A DNA stretch of 64,000 nt from Nitrosarchaeum sp. (GTDB lineage: Archaea > Thermoproteota > Nitrososphaeria > Nitrososphaerales > Nitrosopumilaceae). Below the pieces are notes generated by a model. That model had not been told where the DNA came from. It saw nothing but the letters and a program-made list of their open reading frames with translations, and made no database searches. The position numbers were made by a program, and so were the translations under genes. Below, piece by piece: positions 47,874 to 53,734 of the stretch (positions are counted from its first letter, which is position 1; the number at the start of each line of letters is the position of its first letter). The DNA lies in assembly GCA_003569705.1 (NCBI GenBank), contig BGOU01000002.1, forward strand, positions 1 to 64,000. Direction: 5' to 3'.

Positions 47874-47952
47874 GCTTGTACAAAACTCTGATCAAATTTC
47901 TAGATTGTTCCTTGTCTCAAAGTTTAAATGGTTTTCATCAAGGAATGTTTCT

Positions 47953-48027
47953 GGGCTCATGGTCCAGATCGGTTATGACGTCGCCCTTACACGGCGAAAA
48001 TCCAGGGTTCAAATCCCTGTGGGCCCA
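47953..48027 (+). tRNA. tRNA-Val (anticodon TAC)
   Basis: Acceptor GGGCTCA/TGGGCCC with discriminator A, anticodon stem TCGCC/GGCGA with loop CTTACAC, T stem CAGGG/CCCTG with loop TTCAAAT. A TATA-like AGTTTAAATGG lies at 47921-47931, and a short T run follows at 48028-48032. Confidence 0.95.
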
Positions 48028-48078
48028 TTTTTAGCCTCAAAATATTTTGATTAAATATCTGGAAAAACAACTCAAGGT

Positions 48079-49077
48079 ATGTCAAATTCTGCACTTGCCA
48101 AAAAATCTGGGGTTATTCTGGTATTTGTCTTATTTTCATTTATCTTTCTTGGAATAATTTTTTCGTTAACTAGTGATCTTTCTGTAAAATCTGGAAATGA
48201 GTTTTCTTATTCGTCTTGGTTAATCATTGCTTATGTGGCAGGACTTTCAATGATTATTTTACCTTGTACACTTCCACTAGTATTCATTATAATTCCATTA
48301 AGTATGGGAAAAGGATACAAAAAGGGTTTGAGTATGGCCATATTATTTGGTGCAGGACTAATCACAACCATAACTTTGTACGGATTAGGTGTTGGAGTCA
48401 TTGGAAAAACTGCATCACTTGATCAGTTCTCAACAATAATGTTTTTGATAGCTGGAATTGCCGGATTTGTTTTTGGATTATCGCAACTAAAATTGATTAC
48501 ATTTAAAATGCCCACATATTCCAAGACACCAAAATTTATTCAAAACAGAGGAGAATATGTAAAGTCATATCTGATGGGTATTCTACTTGGTAATGCTGGA
48601 GTAGGATGTCCAAATCCAATGTTTTACTGGCTTTTAATTTACATTGCAGGGACTGGGAGTTTGGAGATTGGTTCGTCACTAGGTTTTGTGCATGGTGTTG
48701 GAAGAGCAATACCTTTAATTCTGTTTTCACTTCTTGCTGTACTTGGAGTAAATGCAACTAAAGGATTAACAACAAATAGAATTAAAGTTGAAAAGATAAC
48801 AGGATGGATGCTTGTTATGATTGGTGCATTTTTAATAATTAACGGTCTTCCTGGAGGACATGTTTGGTATGAAAGTACTATTGTACATATTGGTTGGAAC
48901 AATTTAGTATCAATGATAGGATTGCCCGTTGAATTTCATATAGGACAACATATTCATCAAAATCCATATAATTTTACAATACCAAATGAGATTGTTCCAG
49001 CGATATTTTTGGGATTAATTATATTCCCAATTGTATGGTGTATCATTAATCAAAAGAAGACAAAGATGATACTATGA
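48079..49077 (+). CDS. CcdA/DsbD-like thiol-disulfide transmembrane protein
   Basis: 332 residues with about eight membrane helices. LSMIILPCTLPLVFIIIPLSMGKG carries the first Cys-Thr-Leu-Pro element, and LGNAGVGCPNPMFYWLLIYIAG the second Cys-Pro, the pair that carries electrons across the membrane in CcdA. SLGFVHGVGRAIPLILFSLLAV follows. The long outside loop with GGHVWYEST and HIGQHIHQNPYNF is His-rich. First gene of an overlapping operon with a YHS protein and a glutaredoxin-like protein, suggesting redox or metal delivery. Confidence 0.85.
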   Translation: MSNSALAKKSGVILVFVLFSFIFLGIIFSLTSDLSVKSGNEFSYSSWLIIAYVAGLSMIILPCTLPLVFIIIPLSMGKGYKKGLSMAILFGAGLITTITLYGLGVGVIGKTASLDQFSTIMFLIAGIAGFVFGLSQLKLITFKMPTYSKTPKFIQNRGEYVKSYLMGILLGNAGVGCPNPMFYWLLIYIAGTGSLEIGSSLGFVHGVGRAIPLILFSLLAVLGVNATKGLTTNRIKVEKITGWMLVMIGAFLIINGLPGGHVWYESTIVHIGWNNLVSMIGLPVEFHIGQHIHQNPYNFTIPNEIVPAIFLGLIIFPIVWCIINQKKTKMIL

Positions 49078-49211
49078 AAGATCCAGTTTGTGGCATGGAT
49101 GTTGGAGAAAAAGGAGATTTATTAGAACACAAAGGAAAACAATACCGATTTTGCTGTGCAAGTTGTAGATGGGCTTTTGAGCAAAACCCTGATCAGTTTA
49201 CAGAGTCATGA
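49074..49211 (+). CDS. 45-residue YHS-domain metal-binding protein
   Basis: Starts ATG 49074 overlapping the CcdA-like stop (ATGA) and ends at 49211 overlapping the next start (ATGA). The sequence DPVCGMDVGEKGDLLEHKGKQYRFCCASCRWAF is a complete YHS/TRASH-type motif with the first Cys and the F-C-x-x-C pair. YHS units bind copper or other metals and are seen on metal-transport and monooxygenase proteins. The coupling to CcdA and glutaredoxin points to copper or heavy-metal handling. Confidence 0.85.
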   Translation: MKDPVCGMDVGEKGDLLEHKGKQYRFCCASCRWAFEQNPDQFTES

Positions 49212-49429
49212 AAGTACAAGTTCTTACCACTCCTGGATGCTCAAACTGCATTGTTCTTGAGAAGTTGTTGGACCAACTAGGCATAACATATGACTTGATT
49301 GATGTCACTGAAAAACCCGAATATTTAGAAAAATATCCAATATTTACAGCTCCTGGATTGGTAATTGATGGGAAATTAGAATTTATAGGTATTCCTAAAA
49401 AAGAAGATCTTGAAAAGAAATTCTCATAA
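49208..49429 (+). CDS. Glutaredoxin/thioredoxin-like protein
   Basis: 73 residues. VQVLTTPGCSNCIVLEKLLDQLGITYDLIDV has the C-x-x-C redox pair at residues about 10-13, and FTAPGLVIDGKLEFIGIP the cis-proline loop (T-A-P). This is the small archaeal TRX-like (MJ0307/NrdH-sized) fold. Likely accepts electrons from the CcdA-like protein. Last gene of the three-gene operon. Confidence 0.88.
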   Translation: MKVQVLTTPGCSNCIVLEKLLDQLGITYDLIDVTEKPEYLEKYPIFTAPGLVIDGKLEFIGIPKKEDLEKKFS

Positions 49430-49471: not shown

Positions 49472-49723
49472 ATGACTGATTATTCTACAAATGAAAAAAT
49501 GATCCTTGTGCAATACGCAATTAAAAAATATGAAAATGAAGAAACTATAATTGAAAAATTAAAGACAATTTTATCAGAAAAAGACATTCAAAGAAATATT
49601 GATACATTAATTGGAACTCAAAGAGTACGAAGAATAGGACCAGAAATACTTCAAAACAATGAAAGTCATACTGAAATTCCTGATTTACCAGATAATCTAA
49701 AGTCAATAATTGAACAACTTTAG
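49472..49723 (+). CDS. Small helical protein, unknown function
   Basis: 83 residues, rich in Glu, Lys and Ile, mostly helical (MILVQYAIKKYENEETIIEKLKTIL). No membrane segment or motif recognised. It lies 42 bases after the glutaredoxin gene on the same strand and could be in the same transcript. Confidence 0.55.
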   Translation: MTDYSTNEKMILVQYAIKKYENEETIIEKLKTILSEKDIQRNIDTLIGTQRVRRIGPEILQNNESHTEIPDLPDNLKSIIEQL

Positions 49724-49894: not shown

Positions 49895-50776
49895 TTAAAA
49901 TCCTCGTAGTCCCTCAGGACGTATAATTTCTGGATGTTCTTTCATCCATTTTATTTTATCTAGCATTTCTTGTTTGTCTTGTGGAAATGTACCTTTGATT
50001 GTATATGCGTTTGATCCATGATTTGCTCTAAATACTATCTCTTCTTTAGTTTCTATCTGGCTGATTAAATCATACAACTCTTCTAGAGATTCATTATCAT
50101 TAATTCGAATAAATGGCTCTCCAAATTTTTCCAAAAATTCTTGTTTAATTCCGTTTTCTAAATAGAGAGTTAGTGCTCCTACATAATTAGGCGAACATGC
50201 ACTAATTACTTCTGCAGTTCCTCTGATGTGTTCTTTAGAATAAGTTCTCCCACCTAATCCCAAAATTATCATACAAGACATAATGTAACCTGCATCTTTT
50301 GCCTTGTTGACTGATTTGGTAATTGTTTTTGAAATTGCTCCTTTTGTTACTTTTTTTAAAACAATATCTGAACCACTTTCAATTCCCAAGTAAAGCATGT
50401 CCAATCCAGCATCATGCATTTTCTTTAATTCATCTGTAGTTTTCTTTAAAATATTCATAGGCATTGCATAACAAGAAATTCTTTCAAGGTTTGGAAATTT
50501 TTCATATAGATATTTTGTAATTTTTACAATATATTCTGCATCAAGATTTAATGCGTCACCGTCTGCCAAAAAGATTTTTTTCGTATCTGGTAATTGTTTT
50601 GCCATTAGATCAATTTCTAATTTTACTTTATCCCATGATTTTTCTGAATACTGTTTTGATCTATACATGTCACAAAAAGAACATTCGTTAAAGGAACAAC
50701 CCAACGTAACTTGAAAAATTAATGATCTTGCTTCTGAAGGTGGTCTGTACAATGGACCATCATAGTTTAACATCAT
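49895..50776 (-). CDS. Radical SAM protein
   Basis: 293 residues. FQVTLGCSFNECSFCDMYRSKQY has a C-x4-C-x2-C cluster site, a variant of the usual C-x3-C-x2-C seen in an archaeal/bacterial subgroup. KIFLADGDALNLDAEY, LDMLYLGIESGSDIVLKKVTKG and MIILGLGGRTYSKEHIRGTAEVI are radical SAM barrel blocks. Substrate unknown. ATG at 50776 or 50773. Confidence 0.88.
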   Translation of the reverse strand: MMLNYDGPLYRPPSEARSLIFQVTLGCSFNECSFCDMYRSKQYSEKSWDKVKLEIDLMAKQLPDTKKIFLADGDALNLDAEYIVKITKYLYEKFPNLERISCYAMPMNILKKTTDELKKMHDAGLDMLYLGIESGSDIVLKKVTKGAISKTITKSVNKAKDAGYIMSCMIILGLGGRTYSKEHIRGTAEVISACSPNYVGALTLYLENGIKQEFLEKFGEPFIRINDNESLEELYDLISQIETKEEIVFRANHGSNAYTIKGTFPQDKQEMLDKIKWMKEHPEIIRPEGLRGF

Positions 50777-51574: not shown

Positions 51575-52651
51575 ATGGATTACCATCATTTTCATGGAAA
51601 AAATATTCCCCACATAGAAGTAAATCCAGATATGAAAATTGATGATCTTGTAGAAATTTATGCAAACTCAGGTTACAACGCAAGACAACTTGGAGAAGCT
51701 GCAAAATTGTTTCGCAAGATGATTGAAGATGATGCAACAATTTGTCTTACTATTGCTGGTGCTATGACCCCTGTTGGATTTGGAGGTCTATTCAAATCCC
51801 TTATCGAAAAAGGATTTGTTGATTGGATAATATCTACAGGTTCTAATTTGTACCATGAAGAACATTTTTCATGGGATCTACCTGTAAAACAAGGACATTT
51901 TGAGGTAGATGACATGATTTTGTATCAGAAAGACATTGTCAGGATAAGAGATGTCTATATCAAAGGTGAGGAAACGCTGAAAAAACAAGATATGATCATA
52001 CAAAAAATGTTTGAAAATAATCTGTTTGAAAAACCGTTTACTACTGCAGAATTTGCAAACTGGATGGGCAAATATTCAAAAGAGTATTCAAAACATCCAG
52101 AAAAAAGCTTTGTTGTTTCCGCATATGATTATGATGTGCCTCTCTACATTTCAACACTAAAAGATTCTTCACTTGCCCTTGATCTAGTTCCCTTTAGGCT
52201 TGCCAACAAACCCCTTATGTTAGATTTTGTAAGAGAGATAACTGAGCAGGCGGCAATTTTATACAATTCAAAAAAGGCAGGAATTGTAGAGATAGGCGGT
52301 GGTGTTCCCAAAAACACTGCACAACAGACGGGTCCACTATTAGATCAAATATTGGGTCTTGGTCACGGAGGACAAAATTATATTATCCAGATTACTGATG
52401 CTAGACCCGATACCGGAGGTTTGTCTGGGGCTACACTTCAAGAAGGTAAAAGCTGGGGAAAAGTAAAGGATTCTCACGAAGATGTCATTGTAGTTTATGC
52501 CGATGCTACAATAGCGTTTCCAGTTTTATGCTTGTACGCACTTAGTATGGAAAGCCCGCGAAAACCAAAACGATTGTACAAGAAATTAGGACAATATTAT
52601 GATGATCTATCTGAAACCTATTTTAACAAAAATAAATTAAAGCAATCATAA
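51575..52651 (+). CDS. Deoxyhypusine synthase paralogue 1
   Basis: 358 residues of the DHS fold: LTIAGAMTPVGFGGLFKSLIEKGFVDWIISTGSNLYHEEHF, KAGIVEIGGGVPKNTAQQTGP, and the C-terminal ITDARPDTGGLSGATLQEGKSWGKV, where the Lys of SWGK is the expected catalytic lysine. DHS moves the aminobutyl group of spermidine to aIF5A. The E-F-D-G-S segment of classical DHS is replaced here by D-A-R-P-D-T-G, so the substrate may differ (for example homospermidine-type reactions). The canonical paralogue follows at 52796. Confidence 0.85.
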   Translation: MDYHHFHGKNIPHIEVNPDMKIDDLVEIYANSGYNARQLGEAAKLFRKMIEDDATICLTIAGAMTPVGFGGLFKSLIEKGFVDWIISTGSNLYHEEHFSWDLPVKQGHFEVDDMILYQKDIVRIRDVYIKGEETLKKQDMIIQKMFENNLFEKPFTTAEFANWMGKYSKEYSKHPEKSFVVSAYDYDVPLYISTLKDSSLALDLVPFRLANKPLMLDFVREITEQAAILYNSKKAGIVEIGGGVPKNTAQQTGPLLDQILGLGHGGQNYIIQITDARPDTGGLSGATLQEGKSWGKVKDSHEDVIVVYADATIAFPVLCLYALSMESPRKPKRLYKKLGQYYDDLSETYFNKNKLKQS

Positions 52652-52795: not shown

Positions 52796-53734
52796 ATGGA
52801 AGAACACCGTAGAGTAGTAAAAGATATTTCAATAAAAAATGGAGATGATCTTCAAAGCATTTTTGATCAGCTATCTACGTCAGGTGGTTTTGAATCAAGA
52901 AATCTTGCCGATGGTCTTGAAATTCTTTCAACAATGATAAACGATAAAGACTGTCTAAAGTTTCTCTCATTTGTTGCAGCAATTACATCTACTGGTACTA
53001 GAGGTATAATTGTAGATATGCTTAAGAAAAAAATGTTTGATGTTGTAATTACCACATGTGGTGCTTTAGATCATGATATAGCAAGATATTTTTCAAATTA
53101 TCTGGAGGGATCATTTACTCTAGATGATGCAGAACTTTTAGAAAAGAACATTCACCGATTGGGCAATGTACTTGTTCCTATGGAAAGCTATGGGCCAATA
53201 ATTGAAGAAAAGATGCAAATATTTTTGGAAGCTGCTTACAAATCTGGTAAAAAAGAAATGTCTACTGCAGATATTACAAGAATGATAGGCGAAAACCTTG
53301 GAGAGGGCTCATTCTTGTATTGGGCGTACAAGAACAATATTCCTGTAATAGTACCCGGAATAGTAGATGGTGCAGTAGGTAGTCAGATCTGGCTATTTAC
53401 TCAAAAACATAATGATTTCAAACTTAACGTTGTAGCTGATAGTGAACTTTTATCTTCACTTGTTTTTAAAGCAAAAAAATCTGGCTCTCTCATGTTGGGT
53501 GGTGGAATATCAAAACATCACACTCTTTGGTGGAATCAATATAGGGATGGTCTTGATTATGCTGTCTACATTACTACAGCCCAAGAATTTGACGGAAGCT
53601 TGAGTGGAGCTCTAGTCAAAGAAGCAATTTCATGGGGAAAAGTTACTACAAATGCAAAACAAACTACAATACACGCAGAAATAACCACCATCCTACCGTT
53701 TATTTATTCTGCACTTCTTGCTAGAATAAAATAG
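52796..53734 (+). CDS. dys: Deoxyhypusine synthase paralogue 2
   Basis: 312 residues. LSFVAAITSTGTRGIIVDMLKKKMFDVVITTCGALDHDIAR, SLMLGGGISKHHTLWWNQYRDGLDYAVYI and the active-site TAQEFDGSLSGALVKEAISWGKV match canonical archaeal DHS, with the catalytic Lys in SWGK. It modifies aIF5A to deoxyhypusine. The two paralogues are tandem, same strand, 145 bases apart; this one keeps the EFDGS signature. Confidence 0.9.
   Translation: MEEHRRVVKDISIKNGDDLQSIFDQLSTSGGFESRNLADGLEILSTMINDKDCLKFLSFVAAITSTGTRGIIVDMLKKKMFDVVITTCGALDHDIARYFSNYLEGSFTLDDAELLEKNIHRLGNVLVPMESYGPIIEEKMQIFLEAAYKSGKKEMSTADITRMIGENLGEGSFLYWAYKNNIPVIVPGIVDGAVGSQIWLFTQKHNDFKLNVVADSELLSSLVFKAKKSGSLMLGGGISKHHTLWWNQYRDGLDYAVYITTAQEFDGSLSGALVKEAISWGKVTTNAKQTTIHAEITTILPFIYSALLARIK

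Follow-up and report, generated by a model that had tools for sequence, protein, structure and literature searches.

A conserved trio of CcdA-like, YHS and thioredoxin-like genes in Nitrosarchaeum and its possible part in copper homeostasis

The locus described here raises the question of what function is served by a compact unit in which a CcdA/DsbD-type membrane protein, a free-standing YHS protein and a small redox protein are encoded by overlapping genes. The unit lies in a 64,000-nucleotide stretch of Nitrosarchaeum sp. DNA (contig BGOU01000002.1, positions 1 to 64,000), which we call the window, and is transcribed from the + strand: a gene for a membrane protein of 332 amino acids with a DsbD_TM match over cut-off (CcdA, 48079-49077) is followed by genes for a YHS/TRASH protein of 45 amino acids that matches the YHS and TRASH_HVO_1752_C models (49074-49211) and a thioredoxin-like protein of 73 amino acids with a CSNC motif and a Thioredoxin_3 match (TRX, 49208-49429). 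An earlier note had described three reading frames joined by ATGA overlaps, and both overlaps, CcdA/YHS and YHS/TRX, were confirmed. Among 44 distinct same-strand trio loci of relatives, the overlap is exactly 4 nt at CcdA/YHS in 39, at YHS/TRX in 36 and at both junctions in 32, taking as the TRX start the ATG that came closest to giving a 4-nt overlap, which favours that value, and omitting locus L046, where the YHS gene lies upstream. Frequencies of 39/44 and 36/44 indicate that the overlaps are more than chance.

On the left the unit is bordered by a tRNA-Val(tac) gene (47952-48028, +, found by ARAGORN), which ends 50 bp upstream and stands outside it. A gene for 83 amino acids on the other side (49472-49723) was considered as a further member and rejected, as 28 of 61 genomes contain it, including some that lack this CcdA (G022, G024, G025, G030, G033, G035, G036, G054 and G057). 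In G035 (L103) 40 bp and no trio separate tRNA-Val from the 83-amino acid gene, so that the trio has either entered or left the site between these two genes; in many relatives further genes intervene at this site. There is no second copy of the tRNA-Val 3' end in the window, and a tRNA-integrated element thus finds no support. Behind the trio, on the opposite strand, the window carries a radical-SAM gene (49895-50776, -, PF04055 67 bits). A radical-SAM gene also stands directly after CcdA in three Cenarchaeum-like loci (L042:6969-7850, L044:6987-7865 and L043), the two genes overlapping by 4 nt (L042) or 1 nt (L044). Further along, a tandem gene pair (51575-52651 and 52796-53734) resembles deoxyhypusine synthases by eye.

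The comparison with relatives used two overlapping sets, namely 54 loci with a CcdA relative and 61 genomes (the window genome and 60 others), the latter comprising 37 of the same family, the Nitrosopumilaceae, and 24 of other families. The 61 CcdA members and the 44 trio loci are distinct sequences, and counts over these relatives are not independent. Neighbour genes were obtained with a simple ORF caller and are named by eye unless a family match is given; the places of CcdA, YHS, TRX, regulator and ATPase matches were compared across genomes by hand.

The membrane protein matches PF02683 (DsbD_TM) with 36.6 bits against a cut-off of 27.1 and PF13386 with 24.9 bits against a cut-off of 24.9, and no further Pfam domain over cut-off was found in its 332 amino acids. 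By these models the product of 48079-49077 is a member of the CcdA/DsbD superfamily; the name CcdA given in the earlier note holds in this wider sense, with the qualification that the protein belongs to a divergent subfamily. Two cysteines, Cys63 in the motif LPCTLP (codon at 48265-48267, +) and Cys177 in GCPNP (codon at 48607-48609, +), form the halves of a predicted transmembrane dithiol and are invariant in the 53 aligned subfamily members (53/53 each). In an AlphaFold2 model (pLDDT 78.2, pTM 0.74) the helices are broken at both cysteine motifs, so that one Cys sits in each of two broken transmembrane helices. Foldseek ranked the CcdA structure 5vkv first, with a weak match (E 0.11, TM 0.29) and nothing at E <= 0.001. 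VIA-align gave unrelated transporters with Z up to 8.6, a range common for helical models, and 5vkv was not among the matches listed. A PDB sequence search found only a remote match, again 5vkv (E 0.43). The Foldseek match is weak and the VIA-align matches are unspecific; the DsbD/CcdA assignment rests on the sequence models.

A further feature of the subfamily is a loop of residues 259-304 (48853-48990, +), which has five His and no Lys or Arg and is for that reason predicted to be extracytoplasmic by the positive-inside rule, with the Lys/Arg-rich loops inside. Its residues are strongly conserved (H261 in 52/53, E265 and H270 in 53/53 each, H291 in 46/50 and H293 in 47/50 members), and the motif HxWYE..HxxWN is kept in 60 of the 61 distinct members, L010 deviating at one position. 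The motif is absent from five distant CcdA/DsbD matches in order- or family-mates.

The YHS protein scores over cut-off with both the YHS model (52.1 bits, E 6.5e-14) and TRASH_HVO_1752_C (38.6 bits, E 1.2e-9), and a PDB sequence search gave a best E of 0.071. Its cysteines are arranged as C6-x20-C27-C28-x2-C31, and a pattern with x20 or x19 and the CC pair is found in 42 of 44 loci, the second Cys being absent in two. YHS proteins of any kind occur in 57 of the 61 genomes, mostly as a second, more distant type, and the window genome encodes one of each; that of the widespread type is a free-standing protein of 54 amino acids located apart from the trio (G000:C10:75406-75531, L002). The third protein, which the earlier note had called a glutaredoxin, has CxxC in 44/44 loci and CSNC in 34/44. 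It matches PF13192 (Thioredoxin_3) with 53.5 bits against 24.8 (E 2.4e-14) and Glutaredoxin less well (E 1.6e-8); judging from these family models, small thioredoxin-like protein, with CSNC as its motif, is the more fitting name. It scores below the cut-offs of the NCBIfam models MTH895/ArsE (31.7 vs 62 bits) and MJ0307. Neither the YHS protein nor TRX has a signal peptide recognisable by eye.

The CcdA subfamily (E below 1e-90) is present in 21 of the 61 genomes, all from the same family, and four others match weakly; matches in order-mates outside the family do not go beyond E values of 2e-4 to 1e-6 and 24-26% identity. The nearest named loci are mostly from Nitrosarchaeum, with CcdA identities of 89-92%, from which the host is presumed to be an ammonia-oxidising member of the Nitrosopumilaceae. 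A plasmid search with CcdA returned one canonical DsbD (27%). By locus, the 61 distinct CcdA members divide into 44 with both YHS and TRX, six with TRX only, two with YHS only (L025 and L027, TRX absent) and nine with neither, the last class including L026, where the contig ends, and L077 (G028), where YHS and TRX lie 2.8 kb away. The 44 complete loci bear out the conservation of the triplet, which the earlier note had named as a check. The combination it had regarded as contrary, CcdA and TRX with YHS absent, occurs in the six members mentioned, all distant (DPANN or bacteria), and in none of the Nitrosopumilaceae loci examined.

Partial sets are found as well. Six Cenarchaeum-like members keep CcdA with its His loop, YHS and TRX being absent from the locus. 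TRX (E <= 1e-10) is found in 20 of 61 genomes, i.e. in 19 of the 21 CcdA carriers and in G013; the carriers G021 and G027 gave no TRX match at this threshold, and G027 has a related YHS elsewhere in its genome. In G013, a single fragmented genome, only a C-terminal remnant is left of the subfamily CcdA, both of its partners (YHS and TRX) persist, and upstream there are genes for a Thioredoxin_10 protein and for a CcdA that looks canonical by eye, which hints that electron delivery may be a job shared by the subfamily CcdA and the canonical-looking one. Decay is also seen in G005, which has an intact trio on contig C50 and a degraded one at G005:C133:4593-5059 (L085, L086), with CcdA in two pieces with an internal stop and a stop in TRX. 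L025 (5998-7157) has a frameshift in YHS, no TRX and an intact CcdA. Contigs assigned to Amylibacter (L034) and Planctomycetota (L036) carry an archaeal trio at 68-69% identity and look misbinned. An F510_1955-type glycosylhydrolase-like protein is encoded near the trio in L007, L008, L009 and L010, and the one in L010 exceeds the NF045728 cut-off; the drawing of the Nitrososphaera viennensis copper-limitation cluster in PMC7785015 (Fig. 4 legend) likewise includes a sialidase family gene.

One indication of metal handling comes from a regulator of the CopT/CopR type, a protein of 146 amino acids with an AsnC-type HTH and an Arc_trans_TRASH domain, both over cut-off. At a score of at least 100 bits it has 19 places in the 61 genomes, and 12 of these adjoin the trio CcdA, corresponding to 12 of the 21 CcdA carriers of the family or 12 of the 19 with a complete trio. 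Ten of the 12 are divergent, with about 83-130 bp between the matches, and two are co-directional just behind TRX. Seventeen of the 19 places lie within 5 kb of a YHS match, 12 times the trio's own and five times another YHS; the remaining places are in G033 and, at a contig end, in G024. Two of 19 places in the family adjoin a copper-type ATPase (G036 and G002:C3), and in the other families, 6 of 24 genomes (G039, G043, G044, G049, G052 and G057) have a regulator with both halves matched no more than 5 kb from a heavy-metal ATPase, and three more (G037, G053 and G058) have one with only the HTH half matched near such an ATPase. The adjacent regulator is missing in eight carriers besides the window genome, and a genome search of the latter found no HTH+TRASH regulator of this type.

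ATPases were counted as copper-type at a score of at least 600 bits to TIGR01525, the CPC motif being read only in G002, G017, G036 and G057. So counted, the ATPase is present in 20 of 24 genomes of other families and missing in 16 of the 21 carriers and in 13 of the 16 other genomes of the family, and on these numbers a genome-by-genome replacement of CopA by the trio was rejected. The sole heavy-metal ATPase match of the window genome has TPC, not CPC, and is located elsewhere. In G028, CcdA, a Cys-rich ORF of 38 amino acids with no family match, an ATPase scoring over the cut-off of the copper model, YHS and TRX are found within 4.7 kb in two orientations. Cys-rich small ORFs, metallothionein-like, flank the ATPase/YHS/TRX genes there (L089:1632-1745, with no Pfam or NCBIfam match, and L089:5196-5366). 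At the DPANN locus L056 the genes of CcdA, YHS and TRX are accompanied by one for an ATPase that exceeds the copper cut-off and contains both an HMA domain and a YHS domain of its own, and L046 and L047 contain HMA-bearing ORFs (by eye).

Among the distant members, a bacterial clade has an HMA protein between CcdA and TRX (L049 and L051, E 2.1e-14 and 7.5e-17), the slot of L048 holds a partly masked HMA-like ORF, L046 has a weak YHS protein 0.5 kb upstream, and L052 has a weak HMA-like ORF after TRX with a MerP match below cut-off; in the locus of L050 neither YHS nor a substitute was seen. A CsoR-family repressor is encoded upstream in L048, L049, L051 and L052 (E 4.1e-25 scored for L052, the others being of the same cluster). 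The ligand set of copper CsoR proteins is C-H-C, and a C-Y-C set is like that of persulfide sensors; the repressors have C-H-H (L048, L049, L051) or C-Y-C (L052), and none has C-H-C. In archaeal cop clusters, as described in PMC7830388, CopM (TRASH) takes the place that CopZ (HMA) has in others. In view of this alternation, an exchange of YHS and HMA in one slot is as expected of a metallochaperone.

CcdA/DsbD proteins are known to move electrons outward. We give an even chance to the reading that the trio forms the redox arm of a unit for copper homeostasis. The cytosolic TRX would reduce the Cys63/Cys177 pair of CcdA, and CcdA would carry the electrons across to the outside, for the re-reduction of copper-damaged or copper-binding thiols, or of copper on the His/Glu loop; the 45-amino acid YHS protein would act as a cytosolic Cu(I) chaperone or buffer of the CopM type. 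The CopT/CopR-type regulator would switch the unit where it stands beside the trio, and the window genome would need another switch. Of the earlier note's proposals, that of a compact metal-handling unit is supported by the neighbourhoods of relatives (regulator, ATPases, HMA in the YHS slot), the identity of the metal being suggested by these neighbours and not by this genome. The maturation of cupredoxins finds no support, as the window genome has no SCO1/SenC match and the two small proteins lack a visible signal peptide. For a trio that has a regulator of the CopR kind in the same geometry, copper balance is the most likely setting, because P. furiosus CopR is, according to the part of PMC7830388 that deals with it, copper-responsive and divergent to copA. 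Also relevant is the sub-picomolar Cu(I) affinity reported for the DsbD-like ScsB in an excerpt of PMC8900818. The available sections of PMC7785015 describe a strong rise of N. viennensis DsbD-family genes under copper limitation. The same sections report no copper-limitation response of N. maritimus DsbD-family genes, which may not be the trio CcdA; this counts against the redox-arm reading, as do the missing regulator of the window genome, the Cenarchaeum-like CcdA genes that stand by themselves, L025 and L027 with YHS and no TRX, the carriers G021 and G027, and the bacterial repressors that lack the C-H-C set.

The near-invariant outer His/Glu loop, absent from the five distant matches, could also be taken to belong to a redox-driven metal conduit, in which copper captured by the loop is reduced at the thioredoxin-fed cysteines of CcdA and crosses the membrane as Cu(I) to reach YHS (import), or the path runs the other way (export, in CopA's place). 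The gene of the putative metallochaperone sits between both redox genes, and the regulator has CcdA as its partner here and an ATPase elsewhere. A precedent of Cu(I) binding is given for ScsB in the excerpt of PMC8900818, and PMC7785015 suggests that DsbD might bind Cu+ or import Cu. However, CcdA/DsbD proteins are known as electron carriers, not metal carriers, the Cenarchaeum-like members retain the loop with no YHS, and by the above count CopA is missing no more often from carriers than from non-carriers, which makes a conduit unlikely. The proposal that CcdA, with its outer His/Glu copper site, is a thioredoxin-powered copper reductase/translocase, which would replace CopA as the membrane effector of an archaeal copper regulon and swap Cu(I) with the 45-amino acid YHS protein, appears distinctly doubtful; if true, it would represent a transporter of transition metals powered by electrons from thiols, and this in organisms with a poorly known copper route.

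Alternatively, the trio may serve general extracytoplasmic thiol repair, with YHS as a passenger or zinc protein and copper uninvolved. CcdA and a thioredoxin form a classical pair, carriers with no YHS occur, and the window genome has neither the copper regulator nor a copper-type ATPase. Such a role is rather improbable, given that the YHS slot is conserved and filled by HMA in L049 and L051, and that a copper-type regulator recurs beside the trio. The same design for another soft metal such as mercury would fit the stand-alone TRASH genes that are described in excerpts of PMC3466566 for five archaeal mer operons, the weak MerP match of L052 and the repressors lacking the copper ligand set, but it is very unlikely, since the ATPases adjoining the trio in L056 and L089 score over the copper-ATPase cut-off and MerA was not recognised among the neighbour genes read. 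A sulfur or persulfide redox unit, to which the C-Y-C repressor of L052 (a ligand set like that of persulfide sensors) and a rhodanese-like gene (by eye) after CcdA in L038 might point, is hardly credible, as these are single loci only and the YHS/HMA and TRASH neighbours indicate metal.

Returning to the redox-arm reading, the unit shares features with several known systems. It resembles the archaeal cop cluster (CopT/CopR, CopM, CopA) in its small TRASH/YHS protein and, in 12 of 21 carriers, in the adjacent, mostly divergent HTH+TRASH regulator, whereas the role of membrane effector falls to a CcdA with a thioredoxin-like protein and not to a P-type ATPase. The trio of the window is not a cop cluster by membership, because a CopT/CopR regulator is lacking and the only heavy-metal ATPase is of the TPC type. 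Similar to the CcdA/DsbD transporters (PDB 5vkv), its CcdA has DsbD_TM over cut-off and a Cys in each of two broken helices; unlike 5vkv it has extra N- and C-terminal helices and the conserved outer His/Glu loop. The Scs proteins ScsB and ScsC also include a DsbD-like membrane protein tied to copper tolerance, as the excerpt of PMC8900818 reports, but ScsB carries two additional domains in the periplasm, where ScsC also resides, whereas the trio has one membrane protein of 332 amino acids and partners predicted to be cytosolic. NVIE_014160 of N. viennensis, near CopC/D and strongly induced by copper limitation in the sections of PMC7785015, is likened here by its DsbD family only. A literature search of open-licence papers found no published description of, or experiment on, the trio, and the parts of PMC9723733, PMC7490402, PMC7554672, PMC12448741 and PMC10030591 that were available contain nothing on it.

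Ammonia-oxidising archaea depend on copper enzymes, and to our knowledge the uptake, reduction and buffering of copper in these organisms are largely open. The conserved trio, a regulator type that it has in common with the copper-export ATPase, and the replacement of YHS by HMA in distant bacteria define a small, testable set of genes, and suggest that DsbD-type proteins in ammonia-oxidising archaea are part of copper physiology and not of disulfide repair alone.
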